Assembly (NCBI GenBank): GCA_028293325.1
Contig: JAQGPA010000134.1
Span: 1 to 64,000 of the forward strand
Direction: 5' to 3'
From: Pedosphaera sp.
GTDB lineage: Bacteria; Verrucomicrobiota; Verrucomicrobiia; Limisphaerales; Pedosphaeraceae
DNA length: 64,000 nt
Shown here: positions 7,343-51,827 of the stretch, one piece after another
Numbering within the stretch: position 1 is the stretch's first letter
How the letters are laid out: each line of letters starts with the position of its first letter
Position numbers and translations under genes: made by a program
The notes under the pieces: generated by a model
What the model was told of the DNA's origin: nothing
Databases searched by the model: none
The model's input: only the letters and a program-made list of their open reading frames with translations

Positions 7343-8065
7343 ATGGCCACCCTGGTGTTTGATATAGAGACTTCCGCGCTGCCGCTGGAAAATTTTGATG
7401 AGGCGCAGCAGGAATATCTATTTCGTGACGCCCAGAAAATCCCCGATGAAGCCGCGCGTGAGACGCGCCACGCCGAAATCCGGCGGCAGTTCAACCTTTG
7501 GCCGTTTACCGCGCAGGTGGTGTGCATTGCCATGCTGAACGCCGACACGGTGCGCGGTCAGTCATTATATGTGGCGGAAGAGCATGAGGAGGCCGACCTG
7601 GCGGAGGCCGGGCCGGTTGAATTTGTGCCGTGCGTGGATGAAGTCGAGTTGTTGACGGCGTTTTGGGATATCGCGCAGCATTATGAAACCATTGTGACCT
7701 TTAATGGGCGCGGGTTTGATGTGCCGTTTCTTTATTTGCGGTCCGCCCTGCTGAATGTGCCGATCAAGCGCAAGAACTGGCTGGGTTATCGCTATCAAGT
7801 CGAGCCGCATTGCGACTTGGCGGAACAATTTACGTTTTACGGGGTTAGCGGGCGTGAAGGGGCGGCCCGGCGGTTTAATCTCGATTTCTACTGCAAGGCG
7901 TTTGGCATTGAGTCGCCGAAAAGCCACGGGGTGACGGGGATGGATGTGAACGACCTGATGGCGGCGGGAAAGTATCGGGAAATCGCGGAGTATTGTCTCC
8001 GGGATGTGCAGGCGACTGTCCTGCTTTATCAGGTTTGGAAAGAGCGGCTGGCGGGGATCAAGTGA
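7343..8065 (+). CDS. 3'-5' exonuclease related to the PolB exonuclease domain
   Basis: A DEDD-superfamily nuclease of 240 residues. Exo I is TLVFDIETSALP at the very amino terminus, Exo II is IVTFNGRGFDVPFLYLR at about residues 132-148, and Exo III is YCLRDVQATVLLYQ near the carboxy end, giving the four acidic metal ligands. This matches the stand-alone family of predicted 3'-5' exonucleases related to DNA polymerase B (PF10108). There is no polymerase domain. The likely role is DNA end-trimming or repair in the cytoplasm. The start ATG fits the family because Exo I sits only six residues in. Confidence 0.9.
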   Translation: MATLVFDIETSALPLENFDEAQQEYLFRDAQKIPDEAARETRHAEIRRQFNLWPFTAQVVCIAMLNADTVRGQSLYVAEEHEEADLAEAGPVEFVPCVDEVELLTAFWDIAQHYETIVTFNGRGFDVPFLYLRSALLNVPIKRKNWLGYRYQVEPHCDLAEQFTFYGVSGREGAARRFNLDFYCKAFGIESPKSHGVTGMDVNDLMAAGKYREIAEYCLRDVQATVLLYQVWKERLAGIK

Positions 8066-8099
8066 TGAGGAGTGAAACCGGCTTCGGATTTTACGGGGA

Positions 8100-8403
8100 A
8101 GTTTTAACCACGGATGGACACGGATGGACACGGATTGGCTTTCGCATGGGCACTGGGGGAAAGGGGTTGAACCGCGGAGACGCGGAGACGCGGAGGTGGG
8201 AACGAGGACGACGACGAGGACGAGGACGACAGGGCGGGGCGAGGGGGTGGAATGCGTCGGGTGGTAAACCGGGGCTTGCAAGTTTCTGCTCGCCGGTCGT
8301 GATCAAGGTGAAGCGGAATAAATTCCGCGCCCCACTGACGAGGGAGACGAATGGTTGGCAAATGGTCTGTCCGTGCGCAAAATTATATTGTTAAGTGTTT
8401 TTA
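8100..8403. repeat. Composite dispersed repeats before the nucleosidase gene
   Basis: The gap holds three repeat types in order. A CACGGATGGACACGGATGG and GGAGACGCGGAGACGCGGAGG tract is followed by a GACGACGACGAGGACGAGGACG low-complexity block. Next comes the palindrome GCGGAATAAATTCCGC (8313-8328), which recurs at 33366 and, as GCGGAATGAATTCCGC, at 54160. Last is a block starting TGGTTGGCAAAT (8352) and ending TTGTTAAGTGTTTTTAG about 10 bases before the GTG start; similar blocks precede 33495, 44212 and lie upstream of 40184. No gene is supported here. Confidence 0.65.
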
Positions 8404-8412
8404 GTTTAACCA

Positions 8413-9060
8413 GTGCAAACATCATCAACCATTCTCGTTTGCTTTGCGGTCAAGGAAGAGGCGAAGTTTTTTCCGGTGGCGGAGAGGCCGGCGGGTTGCG
8501 TCACGTTGATCACGGGCATGGGGCGAAGAAATGCCGAGGTGGCGGTGCGCAAGGTTTTGACCCAGGCGCGGCCGGAACTGGTCATCACGGCAGGGTTTGC
8601 CGGCGGGTTGCGGCCCGAATTGAAGACCGGCGCGGTGGTCTTTGAGGAGGATGCAGAGGCCGGGTTGGCGGCAAAATTGCAGGGAGCGGGCGCGGTGCCG
8701 GCAAGATTTTATTGCGCGGAGCGGGTGGCGATCACGGTGGCGGAGAAGGCGGCTTTCTGGAAGTCAACCGGGGCGGACGCGGTGGAGATGGAATCGTCCG
8801 CGATTCGCGCGATCTGCCGCGAACTTAAAATTCCCAGTGCGACCGTGCGGGTGATTTCCGATTCCGCACAGGAAGACCTGCCGCTGGATTTCAACGCATT
8901 GATGACGGCGGGCGACCGGATTAATTATGCGAAGCTGTTTTGGACCATTGCGCGTTCGCCGGGGAAAATAGCTTCGTTGATGCAATTCCAAAAACGGACG
9001 GTGGCCGCGGCGCGCGCGCTGGGAGAAGTCCTGCGCCAATCATTGGGCGGCGGGCGGTAA
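8413..9060 (+). CDS. Phosphorylase-superfamily nucleosidase, HpnG-like
   Basis: A 215-residue protein of the PNP/UDP phosphorylase/MTA-SAH nucleosidase fold. It opens STILVCFAVKEEAKFF, has the ITGMGRRNAEVAV and VITAGFAGGLRPEL glycine loops, the ribose-binding VEMESSAI motif and the catalytic-Asp segment VISDSAQEDLPLDF. Members next to hopanoid genes (HpnG) are thought to cleave adenine from adenosylhopane; the convergent hpnK/hpnD genes support that reading, while an MTA/SAH nucleosidase is the alternative. The start is GTG; no in-frame ATG keeps the first strand. The last 21 bases overlap the convergent gene at 9040-9477. Confidence 0.8.
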   Translation: MQTSSTILVCFAVKEEAKFFPVAERPAGCVTLITGMGRRNAEVAVRKVLTQARPELVITAGFAGGLRPELKTGAVVFEEDAEAGLAAKLQGAGAVPARFYCAERVAITVAEKAAFWKSTGADAVEMESSAIRAICRELKIPSATVRVISDSAQEDLPLDFNALMTAGDRINYAKLFWTIARSPGKIASLMQFQKRTVAAARALGEVLRQSLGGGR

Positions 9061-9477
9061 GGAAGTGGCGGCGGATGGCGGTTTGGGTTTCTCCTCTTTT
9101 TTCTCGCTGTAGGTGATGAGCGCCGCGCCGAGCATGATGAGGAGTACGCCACCCCAACGGACCAGGGGAACATTCTCATGCAGGATGAACCTCGCCGCGA
9201 GCGTGGTGAACACAAAGCCCAGCGCGGTCAGCGGCCAGATGAAACTGACTTCACCGCCCTTGGACATCAGGACCAGCAGCGTACCGAAAAAGACCGCCTC
9301 GAAAAACACACCGAGCAGAATATTGGGATTGGTCACGCCGCTTTTGATGACGCGGAGGACTTCCGACACGCTGATTTGATGGACTTCGCCCACTTGTTTG
9401 AGGCCCTTGTTGAGATACACCACCCCCACGGCCTCGAAGACGAGGCCGATCAGCAGGATAGTCAGCAATTTGGTCAT
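9040..9477 (-). CDS. Half-size EamA/DMT-type membrane protein
   Basis: A 145-residue protein with four hydrophobic segments: TKLLTILLIGLVFEAVGVVYL, ILLGVFFEAVFFGTLLVLMS, VSFIWPLTALGFVFTTLAARF and GGVLLIMLGAALITYS. That is one EamA-like repeat rather than the usual two, so it probably acts as a dimer like small multidrug resistance transporters. The C-terminal tail SEKKEEKPKPP is cytoplasmic. It starts one base after the hpnK stop, so it is almost certainly translated from the hpnD-hpnK message. Transport of a lipid intermediate is a guess from position. Its 3' end overlaps the nucleosidase gene on the other strand. Confidence 0.8.
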   Translation of the reverse strand: MTKLLTILLIGLVFEAVGVVYLNKGLKQVGEVHQISVSEVLRVIKSGVTNPNILLGVFFEAVFFGTLLVLMSKGGEVSFIWPLTALGFVFTTLAARFILHENVPLVRWGGVLLIMLGAALITYSEKKEEKPKPPSAATSLPPAAQ

Positions 9478-9478
9478 G

Positions 9479-10312
9479 TTATAAATCCTGGTAGCGGATG
9501 AGTTGAAGGCCCAGTTGTCCGACCAAGGCTTTTACCCGCGGACTGATCAAGGCAGCGAACTCATGTTTAAATTCATCGAGGGAGGGGTGAGAGTAAAGCT
9601 CCGAATCGCCCGGTGGCAGGCAGGGCAACAGGCGGGAGATGTAGGTTTCATCCACCCGCGCGTTTTGCAGCAAGCCGAAAACCTTTCCGGTATGCTTGAT
9701 ACTCCGGCGTTGAAGTTCTGGCAGAGCGCGCCCGGAGAGGCAACGATAAATCACGGCATGACTGGCGCGATAAAGCCATTGGCCGGAGGAAAGCCGGGCA
9801 TCGAGCCAGAAGGGATCGCGGGTGAGGCGGAGATGGCGGATGCCAAGGGATTCCGCTTCCGCCATGAGGATGCCAAACACCGTTGGGTGCAGGTGCATGT
9901 GGAGATGGCCGTTGACGTGATCGAGCGTCAGGCCGGTGGCGCGGAAGCGCTGGAATTGCGCCAGGATTTCCTCGCGCAATTGCGCGCGCAGATTTTTTTG
10001 ACGGAAATAGCGAAAGCCGACGGCGGCCGGGCGGTCGCTGAACTCGCCGCGGAGATTGACCAATCCGGGAATCTGTTGCGGAGCGAGGGCGGAGCGGCCA
10101 CAGAGCAGCGAAAGATGCAAGCCGACGCCGAGACGGGGATTTTCCCGGGCGAGGGCGACGGCTTCGTCCATGGCCGGTTCATTGACCATGAGGCTGGCGG
10201 TGGTGAGAATGCCCTCGCGATGCGCCTGGAAGACGGCCTGATTAATGGAGTGGGAGCGGCCAAAATCATCCGCGTTGACGATCAGCCGACGCACGGGCTC
10301 AGGGTGTCCCAT
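9479..10312 (-). CDS. hpnK: HpnK, YdjC/ChbG-family hopanoid-associated deacetylase
   Basis: A 277-residue YdjC/ChbG-fold protein. The amino terminus RLIVNADDFGRSHSINQAV carries the metal-binding DD of the family, followed by GILTTASLMVNEPAMDEAV, LGVGLHLSLLCG with the conserved GLH, and LDHVNGHLHMHLHPTVF with metal-binding His residues. This domain order matches HpnK (TIGR03473), which accompanies squalene and hopanoid genes; the enzymatic substrate is not established. It overlaps the end of hpnD by 14 bases and is followed one base later by a membrane gene, indicating one operon. Confidence 0.88.
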   Translation of the reverse strand: MGHPEPVRRLIVNADDFGRSHSINQAVFQAHREGILTTASLMVNEPAMDEAVALARENPRLGVGLHLSLLCGRSALAPQQIPGLVNLRGEFSDRPAAVGFRYFRQKNLRAQLREEILAQFQRFRATGLTLDHVNGHLHMHLHPTVFGILMAEAESLGIRHLRLTRDPFWLDARLSSGQWLYRASHAVIYRCLSGRALPELQRRSIKHTGKVFGLLQNARVDETYISRLLPCLPPGDSELYSHPSLDEFKHEFAALISPRVKALVGQLGLQLIRYQDL

Positions 10313-46487: not shown

Positions 46488-47213
46488 TTAGCGTTTGGCG
46501 GTCCAGTGGATGCTTTGGGCGAGGAGTTTTTGGAAATTGGGGTTTTCGTAGGCGGAGGGGCCGTGGCCGACGATGATGCCGACGACGCGGGATTTTTTCT
46601 CGTCGCGGGTCCAGGCGAGGAGTTCGTCGCCGGTTTTGAGCAGCGGCGTGATGTCGGAGCGCATGTGCAGGTTGGTGTAGAGTTCGTCGTGGAGAACGAA
46701 GTCGGAGAGGCCGGCGGTGACGGGATGGTCTTTGGCGACGACGGTGATGGGGATGTCCACGTCGCCTTTGTATTGGGAGGAGGTGATGCCGTTCGTCATT
46801 TGTGCCTCCAGATAAACATATTTGCCGCCGGCGATGCGCTCGTAATCGGACCACATGGGATAGGAAAGATAGGCGTGATGCAGGACAATGACACCGATGC
46901 CTTTGTCGAAGAGGGCGAGGAAGCGGGCTTTTTGGGCGTCGGTGATGTTGCTGGGGGAATCATAGAGGACGATGACGTCGTAGGTGAACAGGTCGTCGCG
47001 GTCGTAGGCCTCGGCGGTCTTGGCTTCGGCGGCGGTGTCGTAGGTGATTTCGGGGTTGTCTTTGAAGAGTTTGAAGAACGGTTCAGGTTTGAAGGCATGT
47101 CCGCCGGTGAGGACGAGGACTTTGAGCTTGGCGTTGGGTTTGGTTTGGACATCCGGGGCGGCGTGAGTAGTGACCAAGGTGAGGAGCAAAGCAAGAAGGA
47201 CTTGAATTTTCAT
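46488..47213 (-). CDS. Secreted ThuA-domain protein
   Basis: A 241-residue class I glutamine-amidotransferase-like ThuA protein. The signal peptide is KIQVLLALLLTLVTTHAAP. Domain motifs are KVLVLTGGHAFKPEPFF, DVIVLYDSPSNITDAQK, GIGVIVLHHAYLSYPMW and SDFVLHDELYTNLHM. ThuA proteins are linked to carbohydrate metabolism, especially in Planctomycetes and Verrucomicrobia, without a settled reaction. The ATG at 47213 is chosen because it directly precedes the signal peptide; the longer frame is open but unlikely. Confidence 0.88.
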   Translation of the reverse strand: MKIQVLLALLLTLVTTHAAPDVQTKPNAKLKVLVLTGGHAFKPEPFFKLFKDNPEITYDTAAEAKTAEAYDRDDLFTYDVIVLYDSPSNITDAQKARFLALFDKGIGVIVLHHAYLSYPMWSDYERIAGGKYVYLEAQMTNGITSSQYKGDVDIPITVVAKDHPVTAGLSDFVLHDELYTNLHMRSDITPLLKTGDELLAWTRDEKKSRVVGIIVGHGPSAYENPNFQKLLAQSIHWTAKR

Positions 47214-47279
47214 ATAGGGTAAAGGAGTTGGCCCGTTGGTATCAGACGAGCGGGGGAGCGTCAAGAATGGCTTGCGCGC

Positions 47280-47558: not shown

Positions 47559-50180
47559 TTATTTGGTGGCTGACACCTCAGTGCTCTGCCGCTCCGCTGA
47601 ATACAGCGTGCCATCAGGGTTGATGAGGGTGGGTGTGACAAAGACCAATAAATTTTTTATGGTGGTTTTGGGTTTGGTGGTGCTGCGGAACAAATGACCG
47701 AGGATTGGAATATCGCCCAACAGAGGAACTTTGGTTGTCACCGGGAGCGGGCTGATTGGGGCCAAACCGCCCAAGACAATGGTCTGCGCATTCCTTACGT
47801 CCGCGCTGGTGGTCAGTTGCCGCAGGCGAATGCGCGGCAATGGCCCCTGCACTCCAGCGGAGGTGTTGGTCTTATTCGGAGCATCATAGCCCAGAAACTC
47901 AGTGACGGTGGCAATGATGGTCATTTCTATGAGGTGACCATCGGCGGAAAGGTGAGGGATGACATCGAGAACGGGGCCGAAGGGCAGGGCTTGGGTTATA
48001 AAATTGTTGGTGATGGTTCCATTTGCGTTGGTCACAGAATTGACGCCTGTGACGATGGTCTGTATATCTACGATCTGCATCTGGGCCTGACGTCCGACTT
48101 CGGTGATCATTTCCGGAGCTGCTAAGATATCCACGCCGTCATAATATTCGAGGAGATGAAATAGCTTTTTATATTGTGGTTCGGTCAAAATGCCAGTGAA
48201 TTGCGCCATGATAGAATTAGTGACCGGGAGGTTGAGAACAAGGTTAGTGCCATTCGTCCCACCGAAAGCGGGCGGGGAGATTCCCGCTGCGGCATGATTG
48301 GTGGGTTTTTGTGCTGCGTTTTCATAGAGAAACGCCAGCGGTTCAAATTTGTTGGTGGTTTCGTCGATTTCGACGAATTTGGTTTTGATGTTGATTTGGA
48401 GTGGGCCAGCTTTCATCCGTTTAGTGGCGGCGGTGTACTTATTCAAAAGCGGCGCGGTGTTGGTGTTGGTTGCCACACGATTCGTGCTGGTGTGCCAATC
48501 GAAACCGAGTTCAGGGGGAGACGCATCGTTTACGGCGACTGGCTTTACGACAATATGTGCTTTCGATTCGGGACGAGCGGCTGGGTACTTCAGTGAGAAA
48601 ACCACGTTCGTATCCAGAATTGAAAATTTGACGGGAGGGCTGGCTCCTTGGGTTATGGCTTCGAGCACATTGGCCAGTGTCGCATTGGTAAGAGCGGGGG
48701 GAAGCTTCACGATGATTGTGTCTGCGTCCGTGGATGCGATAGGCAGACCGGTGGCGGGATCCACGGTGGGATATGGGAATCTGGGTGCAGGCTCGTCAGC
48801 TCCGTTATCGGCGTTCGACCCGGAGGAAATCGGCAGACCGGTGGCCGGATCCACAGCGGGGTATGGGAATCTGGTGGCGGGAGCTTCGGTTCCAGTGTCA
48901 ACGCCATTAGCAGCCGAGGCAGTTTTGCGGCCAAAGAAGAACTTAATGTCAATCTGGTTCGGGTCGTTGGATTTGGCGAGTTCGTTGAGGTCTTTAATTA
49001 CTTCCGACAAGGGCAGGCCGTTAAATTGGGTGGCGTCGATGCGGATCTGGTCAAGCTGGGCGAGAATATTTTGGCGGGCCGAGTTGGTGTGAGTGAGATG
49101 GGTTTGAGCTGGTTGGCTGGTCTTATCCGCCAAGGCGCTGTTGCTGTGCAGGGCAATCAACAGCGCGGAGGTGGCGGTCAACGTGAGCAGGACGGCGACC
49201 AGCCAGCCTGAGCGACCGACCTCCTTGTCCGGTCGCCCGGCCAGCCGGCGAATGCGGTCGAGCAAAGGAGCACCATTGGCGGCGAGGGCGAGTTGAGGTG
49301 GCGTCGCGCGCAATTCTTCAAGCGTGGCGAGGGCGCGGGCATAGACGGCGCGATCACCGCAAACGCGCACGGCCAAGTCATCGCAGCAATTTTCGCGTTC
49401 GTGGCGGATGCGCCGTGAAACCCACCAGACCGCCGGATGATAGAACAGCAAGGTTTCGACCGCGCTTTGCAATAGATTGACCAGGTAATCATGACGGCGG
49501 ATGTGGGCCAGTTCATGTGCGAGGATGGATTCCAATTGCGTGGGCGAGAGACCAACCAGGCAACTTGCCGGTAATAGAATTACCGGACGCAGCCAGCCAA
49601 TCACCGTGGGCACCTCGACCAAGGCGGATTGCAGTAAACGCACGGGGCGGCTGACGCGCAAGCGTTCGGCGAGTAGATGCAAGCGTTGTTGCCAAACTTC
49701 GTCGAGCGCGGTGGTGGCGGTTTGACGGAGGCGGTGCACTGCCAGCCAGCCGACCAGCAATTTGCCCGACAACGCGAGCACGCCAGCGGCCCAGGCAATG
49801 ACGAGCCACGGTAAAATTTGTTCGAGTCGTTCGGTTGGGCTCAGTGGCGGTGGCACCGCTTTGAAGGAAACGATGACCTTTGGATCCGGAGCAGTGGTCT
49901 CGCTAATGTGAGTGGTGGGCGCAGGTGTGGCGATGGCGGCCGAAAATGCAGGTGTGAGACGCTGATAGTGTTGCGCCACGTGGTTGAAGGTGATGGCCGG
50001 TACGATGAGCATGGCCAGTAATGCCGCGCAGGCGACGAGGTAGCGCTGGTTCGCGGAACCGGGGCGCAGGAGGCGCAGACAAATTGCCAGCCAGAGGGCG
50101 ATGGCCAGGCCTTGCCAGAGAAAATGCAGCAGCGTCCAGCCCAGACAGGGAACCAGTGTTTCGGGCGCGATTGGATTCAT
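47559..50180 (-). CDS. BlaR1-type M56 metallopeptidase fused to a secretin domain
   Basis: An 873-residue protein. Residues 1-345 form a BlaR1/M56 module: helices at about 12-38, 48-66 and 124-146, the zinc site HELAH (222-226) with the distal Glu in ENCCDDLAV (263-271), and a fourth helix (326-344). Then comes an STN-like stretch (IRIDATQFNGLPLSEVIKDL), a linker with a duplicated FPYPxVDPATGLPI unit (90-base period, 48741 and 48831), the second half of an STN-like domain (ATLANVLEAIT) and, from about 600, a GspD/PilQ-type secretin with VLDVIPHLSADGHLIEM and VPLLGDIPILGHLFRS. BlaR1 proteins normally have a penicillin-binding or no sensor; a secretin there is unusual. It overlaps blaI by 4 bases. 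Confidence 0.88.
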   Translation of the reverse strand: MNPIAPETLVPCLGWTLLHFLWQGLAIALWLAICLRLLRPGSANQRYLVACAALLAMLIVPAITFNHVAQHYQRLTPAFSAAIATPAPTTHISETTAPDPKVIVSFKAVPPPLSPTERLEQILPWLVIAWAAGVLALSGKLLVGWLAVHRLRQTATTALDEVWQQRLHLLAERLRVSRPVRLLQSALVEVPTVIGWLRPVILLPASCLVGLSPTQLESILAHELAHIRRHDYLVNLLQSAVETLLFYHPAVWWVSRRIRHERENCCDDLAVRVCGDRAVYARALATLEELRATPPQLALAANGAPLLDRIRRLAGRPDKEVGRSGWLVAVLLTLTATSALLIALHSNSALADKTSQPAQTHLTHTNSARQNILAQLDQIRIDATQFNGLPLSEVIKDLNELAKSNDPNQIDIKFFFGRKTASAANGVDTGTEAPATRFPYPAVDPATGLPISSGSNADNGADEPAPRFPYPTVDPATGLPIASTDADTIIVKLPPALTNATLANVLEAITQGASPPVKFSILDTNVVFSLKYPAARPESKAHIVVKPVAVNDASPPELGFDWHTSTNRVATNTNTAPLLNKYTAATKRMKAGPLQINIKTKFVEIDETTNKFEPLAFLYENAAQKPTNHAAAGISPPAFGGTNGTNLVLNLPVTNSIMAQFTGILTEPQYKKLFHLLEYYDGVDILAAPEMITEVGRQAQMQIVDIQTIVTGVNSVTNANGTITNNFITQALPFGPVLDVIPHLSADGHLIEMTIIATVTEFLGYDAPNKTNTSAGVQGPLPRIRLRQLTTSADVRNAQTIVLGGLAPISPLPVTTKVPLLGDIPILGHLFRSTTKPKTTIKNLLVFVTPTLINPDGTLYSAERQSTEVSATK
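48741..48910 (-). repeat. Tandem 90-base coding repeat in the M56-secretin linker
   Basis: GGCAGACCGGTGGC(G/C)GGATCCAC starts at 48742 and 48832, 90 bases apart, each followed by a stretch reading GGGTATGGGAATCTGG or close to it. On the coding strand it yields FPYPAVDPATGLPIS and FPYPTVDPATGLPIA. It sits between the two parts of the STN-like region and keeps the reading frame. Confidence 0.7.
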
Positions 50181-50566
50181 GATTTGCCTCCCTCCAGTTC
50201 ATTGAGCAGCTTGCGGATTTCCGCCAGTTCCTGGGGGGAAGATTTTTTGGTGGCGAGCGCCTGCAGCACCAACTTCTGGGCGGAGCCGCCAAACGCGCGG
50301 TCCAACAAATGGCCGACGAGTTGGCACTGGACCTGTTGTTCGCTAAAGGTTGTTTCATAGACGTGGGAGCGTTCTGATTCGTCGCGTCGAACCAGTCCTT
50401 TCTCCGTCATGATTTGGAGCATCTTGAGGACGGTGGTGTAGCCGGTGGCCTGGGCGCGGTTGAGTTCGTCAAAAACGGTCCGGACGGTGGCGGGGCCGAG
50501 GCGCCAGAGGACGCGCAGAATGGCCAGTTCGGTATCAGTCGGTTTGGGAGGGAGAGACTTTTTCAT
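50177..50566 (-). CDS. blaI: BlaI/MecI/CopY-family repressor
   Basis: A 129-residue winged-helix repressor. The DNA-binding part reads TELAILRVLWRLGPATVRTVFDEL and TGYTTVLKMLQIMTEKGLVRRDESERSHVYE, and the carboxy dimerisation part ends EIRKLLNELEGGK. In BlaR1/BlaI systems the membrane peptidase triggers cleavage of this repressor; the site is usually near the Asn-Phe after the wing and could not be identified with certainty here. It is translationally coupled to the M56-secretin gene by ATGA. Two matched operators lie in its promoter. Confidence 0.93.
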   Translation of the reverse strand: MKKSLPPKPTDTELAILRVLWRLGPATVRTVFDELNRAQATGYTTVLKMLQIMTEKGLVRRDESERSHVYETTFSEQQVQCQLVGHLLDRAFGGSAQKLVLQALATKKSSPQELAEIRKLLNELEGGKS

Positions 50567-50590: not shown

Positions 50591-50632
50591 ATATTACGAA
50601 TAGTTTCGTAGTTGTCAACGAAAAACTTCGTA
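50591..50632 (-). promoter_or_regulatory. blaI promoter with two BlaI operators
   Basis: On the minus strand TTGACA (50613-50618) and TAATAT (50591-50596) are separated by 16 bases, a strong sigma-70-type promoter starting transcription toward blaI. Two palindromes overlap it: TACGAA-TAGT-TTCGTA (50595-50610) and AACGAA-AAAC-TTCGTA (50617-50632), with their centres 22 bases, two helical turns, apart. This arrangement suits cooperative binding of two BlaI dimers and autoregulation of the blaI-M56-secretin operon. Confidence 0.75.
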
Positions 50633-51431: not shown

Positions 51432-51659
51432 TTAAGGGTTCAGGGACAGGCGGATGTCGTATTTGGGCTGTCCGAAATTGAGCACCAATTCAACCTGGTC
51501 GAGATGTTGTTGGCGGCACAGATGTGCGGCGCTCAGCATGTCTTGAAAGTGGATTGCCTCCGTGAGGCTGGAGGTCCAGCGGCCCGGGCTCTGGTAATAC
51601 AAGCGGGTGGCCTTGTGTTGGACCAGACGAATGGGAAATTCAGCGCTTAAAGTCACCAT
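51432..51659 (-). CDS. Small protein of unknown function, paralogous to 50757-50984
   Basis: A 75-residue protein starting MVTLSAEFPIRLVQHKATRLYYQ. Its order, strand then WTSSLTEAIHFQDMLSAAHL then VELVLNFGQPKYDIRLSL, parallels the 50757 product (WTDNPREAKDFAFTAHARAV then FQILFYFPDINYRIVV). The frame extends upstream to a TTG at 51803, but the paralogue alignment begins at this ATG. The gene is divergent from the response regulator starting at 51828. Function unknown. Confidence 0.6.
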   Translation of the reverse strand: MVTLSAEFPIRLVQHKATRLYYQSPGRWTSSLTEAIHFQDMLSAAHLCRQQHLDQVELVLNFGQPKYDIRLSLNP

Positions 51660-51827
51660 GCTGGTGATTAGACACGAGCGGTAAAAATATGCCATGGGGT
51701 CTTTACCCATAAGGAAGGTGCGCGTGCCGACCTCGTGGCATGGAATTTGCGCTTTTCTGCGTACGCGCGTCGTCACGCGCTGCTTTGCCTCGATTTGAGA
51801 CAATGCAGTCCGGCCGCGCCCGTAAAT

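Follow-up and report, generated by a model that had tools for sequence, protein, structure and literature searches.

What does a BlaI-type repressor control, and what does its membrane protease sense, when the protease ends in a secretin domain? The question is raised by a locus in the window, the 64,000-nucleotide stretch of Pedosphaera sp. DNA analysed here. M56/BlaI pairs and secretins are each well known, and BlaI–M56 pairs are common outside resistance operons; to our knowledge, what these non-resistance pairs sense and control is largely unknown. At this locus the sequence itself shows the operator, a single operon makes up the apparent regulon and the cargo can be recognised as a secretin, so that the role of an orphan BlaR1-like pair becomes a testable question. 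In our preferred reading, to which we give a probability of about 50%, the operon of blaI and the fusion gene is a self-contained and self-regulated cassette for envelope sensing, in which the secretin part would be sensor and effector and not an outer-membrane channel.

A single reading frame encodes an M56 peptidase and a secretin core

The fusion gene (47559–50180, minus strand) is an 873-codon frame with an ATG start and without an internal stop. It encodes an M56 peptidase, an N0-like domain and a secretin core in one protein of 873 residues. Pfam scans placed Peptidase_M56 (PF05569) on residues 27–293 (E 4.1e-32, 112 bits, cut-off 31) and Secretin (PF00263) on residues 679–853 (E 7.8e-28, 97.6 bits, cut-off 27.5). 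The latter match spans positions 4–168 of the 169 of the profile and represents a full-length core. The first-pass annotation had read the locus as a one-gene fusion of these two parts and had named a profile scan as the check; with both domains above cut-off in a single open frame, the fusion is confirmed.

The secretin core comprises residues 591–865 (47586–48410, minus strand; Pfam match at 47622–48146). The window copy contains the secretin signature segment VPLLGDIPILGHLF (47688–47729, minus strand) as well as the C-terminal FVTPT strand. Among NCBIfam models, TIGR02517 GspD matched the core with E 1.9e-29, and profile matches to solved GspD and PilQ range from E 1e-26 to 1e-18. The matches of the whole protein to the secretin models GspD, MshL and PilQ and to BlaR1-type models are all below the equivalog cut-offs.

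Residues 358–535 (approximate limits; 48576–49109, minus strand) form a putative N0/STN-like domain with a long insert, as judged by homology and by a modelled strand–helix–strands order. Inside the insert is a short internal repeat, whose two copies (48741–48784 and 48831–48874, minus strand) both encode RFPYPxVDPATGLPI. For the STN-like region proposed earlier the support is indirect: Pfam gave no STN match in the window protein, but these residues share homology with the N-terminal domain of the genome's own pilus secretin (L062; E 2e-20 and 2e-13), and STN is found at E 1.3e-8 in a Planctomycetota relative (L078). Secretin_N (N1/N3) is absent before the core, both by Pfam and in a search with an N3 stretch.

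The protease part matches BlaR1 in fold and spacing

The M56 part (residues 1–345; 49146–50180, minus strand) is defined by PF05569 and has four transmembrane helices predicted from the AlphaFold model. Its zinc site HELAH (residues 222–226) is encoded at 49503–49517, and E263-xxx-D267 (E263-N-C-C-D267), containing the third zinc ligand and its partner, at 49380–49394, both on the minus strand. In the alignment, these residues are offset by +21 from the zinc site of Staphylococcus aureus BlaR1, H201ExxH and E242xxxD (PMC9834060). In the AlphaFold model, long helices (9–37, 43–75, 115–153, 323–354) surround a confidently modelled protease domain, with pLDDT mostly above 90 in the M56 part, and a fold search of the PDB with this model gave BlaR1 as top hit (8exs, E 1.3e-7). 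HExxH and ExxxD within PF05569, together with the four predicted helices, assign the protein to peptidase family M56. The zinc site (HELAH with ENCCDD) and the four helices, first noticed in the sequence alone, are thus upheld by spacing, model and fold.

Beyond the fourth helix (residues 323–354; 49119–49214, minus strand; AlphaFold2 secondary structure) the chain is predicted to be periplasmic. The protease would accordingly face the cytoplasm, with the N0-like domain and the secretin core in the periplasm. The secretin part itself reached a pLDDT below 50 only, because nearly all of the 33 rows in the AlphaFold2 alignment were M56 sequences.

Like BlaR1/BlaI and MecR1/MecI of Staphylococcus, the system has the M56 gluzincin spacing of H-E-x-x-H and E-x-x-x-D, four transmembrane helices, a BlaI-type repressor gene alongside and a C-terminal sensor on the outside. 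In contrast to these systems, a secretin core replaces the penicillin-binding sensor, the operator was found only at its own promoter, and no target resembling blaZ or mecA, the genes induced by BlaR1, was seen. An M56–BlaI pair which matches the BlaR1 model NF000326 with 88.6 bits might be an ordinary beta-lactam sensor inducing a beta-lactamase. That score, however, is far below the 400-bit equivalog cut-off, and no penicillin-binding (transpeptidase-type) domain was found in the fusion by Pfam and NCBIfam scans. We regard an ordinary BlaR1 as highly improbable, a beta-lactam sensor being ruled out by the absent domain and the score below cut-off. We do not class the fusion as a BlaR1.

blaI and the fusion gene share a promoter with two candidate operators

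The gene blaI (50177–50566, minus strand) encodes a BlaI/MecI/CopY-type repressor of 129 residues (Penicillinase_R, PF03965, E 1.8e-26). The blaI stop codon TGA and the start codon ATG of the fusion share bases in the sequence ATGA at 50177–50180. The minus strand 5′ of blaI reads AAGTACGAAGTTTTTCGTTGACAACTACGAAACTATTCGTAATAT and holds two dyads of the form TACGAA-N4-TTCGT(A/T); TTGACA lies between the two and in part overlaps them. Candidate operator dyad O1, TACGAAACTATTCGTA (50595–50610, read on the minus strand), has exact palindromic arms, and O2, TACGAAGTTTTTCGTT (50617–50632), has one mismatch. The predicted promoter (50591–50618, minus strand) agrees with the consensus at 10 of 12 positions and consists of TTGACA (50613–50618), a 16-nt spacer holding O1, and TAATAT (50591–50596). 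The occurrence of this dyad pair in the window is far above chance (expected 0.01). The Penicillinase_R winged helix and a dyad over the promoter are features of BlaI/MecI/CopY repressors, and both are found here. The earlier proposal of a BlaR1-type inner-membrane protease with a non-cytoplasmic secretin part, linked to a BlaI gene, gains support from the ATGA overlap, the promoter operators and the predicted topology.

The genome to which the window belongs is a draft in 218 contigs, 93.8% complete. In it the exact TACGAA-N4-TTCGTA dyad occurs once, at the blaI–fusion operon. Other sites with one mismatch are no commoner than those of a reversed control pattern, and the ones inspected lie inside ORFs. 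The genome-wide dyad search revealed no operator at the pilus secretin locus described below. We rejected the idea that BlaI controls the pilus secretin or other genes, as there is no further exact operator and the one-mismatch sites are at control level and in ORFs. The single exact site in the genome suggests that the circuit regulates only itself. Its own operon is provisionally taken as the sole target of BlaI, which may also bind degenerate sites overlooked in an exact search.

Seven related genomes likewise have a single exact site, located 5′ of the blaI–M56 operon of the window's family; G007 has one exact dyad elsewhere and two one-mismatch dyads at its own operon. Exact sites in 13 genomes of other phyla are mostly at the blaI–M56 operon. 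As the dyad is shared by blaI–M56 operons across phyla, the operator belongs to a BlaI/M56 subfamily and not to the secretin fusion itself.

The tandem TACGAAN4TTCGTA is common to one BlaI–M56 subfamily in Bacteroidota, Acidobacteria, Myxococcota (Myxococcus) and others. It is found 5′ of blaI at L077, L095, L101, L105, L108, L123, L124, L129 and other loci, and also at L138, L139 and L146. Across phyla it nearly always represents the only exact site or sites of the genome, and some Bacteroidota have three dyad copies in a row.

The fusion recurs in related genomes

We collected M56 ORFs across 97 genomes in the window's order and obtained 119 distinct ones, in which C-terminal secretin cores were called with a profile built for this analysis. 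Such a core is present in 35 of the 119 ORFs, distributed over 34 genomes; the same single-frame fusion thus occurs in 33 genomes of the order besides that of the window. A fused ORF was also found in one Planctomycetota MAG (L078; M56 part 49% identical), the sole fusion in a set of 81 M56 ORFs that come from named genomes of other groups. None of seven M56 relatives from other parts of the phylum, outside the order, has the secretin part. The search for the same architecture and its spread, suggested at first pass, therefore identifies the fusion as a recurrent architecture in the order and not as a singleton.

The 35 ORFs from the order and L078 make up a set of 36 fused ORFs. All 36 have an intact HExxH/ExxxD zinc site. 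Pfam detects Secretin in 30 of them, the six weakest being called by our own profile and not by Pfam, and Secretin_N in nine; the Amuc_1098 pilus-secretin family model of NCBIfam matches 33. Across all 119 M56 ORFs, blaI adjoins the M56 gene in 104 cases. Some relatives (L035, L043, L196, L078) have two or three secretin cores. In a genome of the same genus (G001) the gene is split by contig ends: the first 345 codons or so are on L053, and L287 has at its contig start a secretin core which groups with that of the window. We infer that the two pieces are one gene.

The same continuous arrangement in 33 further genomes and in the Planctomycetota MAG bears on the possibility that an assembly or sequencing artefact has joined two genes. 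Moreover, a phylogeny of secretin cores places that of the window together with other fused cores (99% SH-aLRT). Because relatives repeat the arrangement and the cores cluster on the tree, the fusion is real and does not reflect a missed stop; the chance of an artefactual join is negligible, and we consider it ruled out.

Most fused genes have no close same-strand gene downstream. In L034 and L246 the gene behind the fusion is another secretin-core gene. In L034, two tandem short secretin-core genes (7969–9027 and 9027–10001), derived from the same fused-core family, lie right behind the fusion.

Among IMG/VR viral contigs, no relatives of the secretin part were detected. A search of the open-access literature for M56/BlaR1 with secretin, and for BlaI with the operator word, returned nothing relevant; on this basis, the bare M56–secretin architecture is provisionally new.

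Origin and evolution of the secretin part

The nearest standalone relative in the same genome is a secretin of 896 residues on contig C139. Its gene adjoins Amuc_1100- and Amuc_1101 (PilM)-like genes, and it is assigned as an Amuc_1098-type type IV pilus secretin. The presence of such Amuc families points to a member of the Verrucomicrobiota. Over residues 656–865 the fusion is 59% identical to it. The Amuc_1098 model NF042912 gives 94.4 bits for the fusion, below its equivalog cut-off of 750 bits; the standalone paralog, with 331.6 bits, is also below this cut-off. These matches indicate that the secretin part of the fusion derives from an Amuc_1098-type pilus secretin. Both proteins have homologous N0-like domains and secretin cores. 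The fusion, in contrast to the pilus secretin, lacks a signal peptide, has an N-terminal transmembrane protease and evolves faster; it has kept the N0-like domain and the entire core, and the N3 domain between them is absent. With the N3 stretch of the pilus secretin as query, many relatives were found, the window fusion not among them. N3 contacts neighbouring subunits in secretin rings. While the core matches solved GspD and PilQ, these form rings in the outer membrane, have N domains that include N3 and carry no protease. With N3 absent and a transmembrane protease at the N-terminus, we do not class the fusion among the secretins by function.

In a comparison with the sister species, BlaI has 83% amino-acid identity and the M56 part 71%; the fused core reaches 58%, against 75% in the core of the pilus secretin. 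The same comparison gives the fused core a dN of 0.355 and the pilus core one of 0.189, and dS is saturated yet far above dN. As dN is far below dS and twice that of the pilus core, the fused core is constrained and evolves about twofold faster. The VPxLGxxP segment is kept in 10 of 41 fused domains compared with 18 of 22 standalone secretins.

These data bear on whether the secretin part forms a true channel, as an oligomeric pore held to the inner membrane or proteolytically released, whose synthesis is self-induced. The window copy does have a complete Pfam Secretin match, retains VPxLGDIP and the FVTPT strand, and the operons of L034 and L246 contain extra secretin-core genes. Against a channel, there is neither a separate export signal nor a pilotin site, the protein begins with a transmembrane protease, N3 is missing, and most fused relatives have lost VPxLGxxP. 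We consider a channel improbable. Of the first-pass description of this part as one normally found in outer-membrane channels, the signature segment of the window copy stands, but the loss of N3, the faster evolution and the loss of VPxLGxxP in most relatives speak against a channel. We read the pattern as relaxed channel function across the fused class, which for the window copy is not proven.

The secretin label takes 11 changes on a phylogeny of 126 M56 domains, at least seven of them on well-supported branches; secretin parts were gained or lost repeatedly across M56 lineages. The secretin cores of the window's family, among them those of the two short genes of L034 that encode a secretin core only, form one clade (99%), and the window's M56 family therefore most simply acquired its secretin once, with later duplication.

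M56 proteins with CarboxypepD_reg and other domains, in the same order, in Bacteroidota and elsewhere, share the BlaI–M56 layout, and several of them have the same tandem TACGAAN4TTCGTA operator; they differ in the periplasmic cargo domain. The secretin part might be a shuffled remnant without a secretin-specific role, in a place where any bulky periplasmic domain would do. Many unrelated C-terminal domains (CarboxypepD_reg, PD40, thioredoxin, LamG) are found on M56 proteins of the order, and the fused cores diverge rapidly. However, secretin is the commonest tail, in 35 of 119 M56 ORFs (CarboxypepD_reg is in 19 of the 80 scanned ORFs without secretin), the M56 tree shows that it was repeatedly acquired or lost, and dN is well under dS. 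A mere remnant is thus quite improbable as well.

Proposed circuit

We favour a periplasmic sensor and oligomerisation domain, which is also an induced product, over a channel. Bound as dimers to the two tandem dyads over the promoter, BlaI would repress the operon. The fusion would reside in the inner membrane, with the zinc protease in the cytoplasm and the N0-like domain and secretin core in the periplasm. There the secretin part may feel an event, most simply an altered oligomeric state or altered contacts with envelope components. In BlaR1, a change in the outer sensor leads to cleavage of BlaI (PMC9834060); by analogy, the activated protease would cleave BlaI and free the promoter, in line with the sensing and cleavage proposed at first pass. 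The products released would be BlaI and the fusion only, with extra secretin-core proteins in some relatives. As only its own operon seems to be controlled, the circuit could be useful only via its own product, and the secretin part is probably both sensor and product, at the input and at the output of the circuit. In this BlaR1-like relay, a domain that once belonged to a type IV pilus secretin would have been redeployed as a sensing and oligomerising module.

What the secretin part senses could be the assembly of the cell's own pilus secretin, if it entered mixed oligomers with the 896-residue Amuc_1098-type secretin and mis-assembly switched the protease. The 59% identity to that secretin and the match of 33 of 36 fused proteins to the Amuc_1098 family model are in line with this. 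In a related genome an M56–YscJ/FliF fusion adjoins a secretin gene, and parts of ring machines recur as M56 partners. On the other hand, the pilus locus is without an operator and the pilus is thus not what the circuit regulates, the fusion has diverged strongly from the pilus secretin, and it lacks N3. We consider such a pilus-assembly sensor unlikely.

More generally, the envelope-sensing cassette may belong to a class of self-inducing cassettes, in which BlaI, with a single operator site in the genome, controls only an M56 protease that carries parts of trans-envelope machines; the protein would sense the state of such a machine or itself form a protease-coupled assembly. The parts would be secretin here and, in relatives, YscJ/FliF, a SecDF P1 head and ExbD. 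This generalisation is tentative. Should the secretin part indeed sense how the envelope is assembled, this would represent a novel form of envelope monitoring by regulated proteolysis, in a group poorly studied for such systems.

Neighbouring genes and other M56 fusions

A ThuA-like gene (46488–47264, minus strand) lies behind the fusion gene after a gap of 294 bp. By eye, a ThuA-like ORF is also seen behind the secretin core in the sister genome (L287:1451–2329), and the neighbourhood of fusion and ThuA may be conserved. A small ORF (51432–51803, minus strand) is located upstream of blaI, and an apparent relative lies upstream of blaI in G005 (L068:6517–6852).

The window's genome has two other BlaI–M56 pairs, in which another domain takes the place of the secretin: L001 (contig C53 of G000) with a LamG-like domain, as judged by eye, and L064 (contig C47 of G000) with CarboxypepD_reg repeats. 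The locus L044 (G058, contig C230; 6715–8550 and 3937–6715) encodes an M56 peptidase with a YscJ/FliF ring domain attached (PF01514, E 4e-34). Joined to it by an ATGA overlap are genes for a further FliF/YscJ piece and for an Amuc_1098-like secretin that has a LysM domain. Among the 97 genomes, this fusion is seen in L044 only. Two further M56 proteins have other partners: L202:749–4387 an ExbD domain and a weak secretin-like stretch, and L037:4805–8830 a SecDF P1 head and Sel1 repeats.
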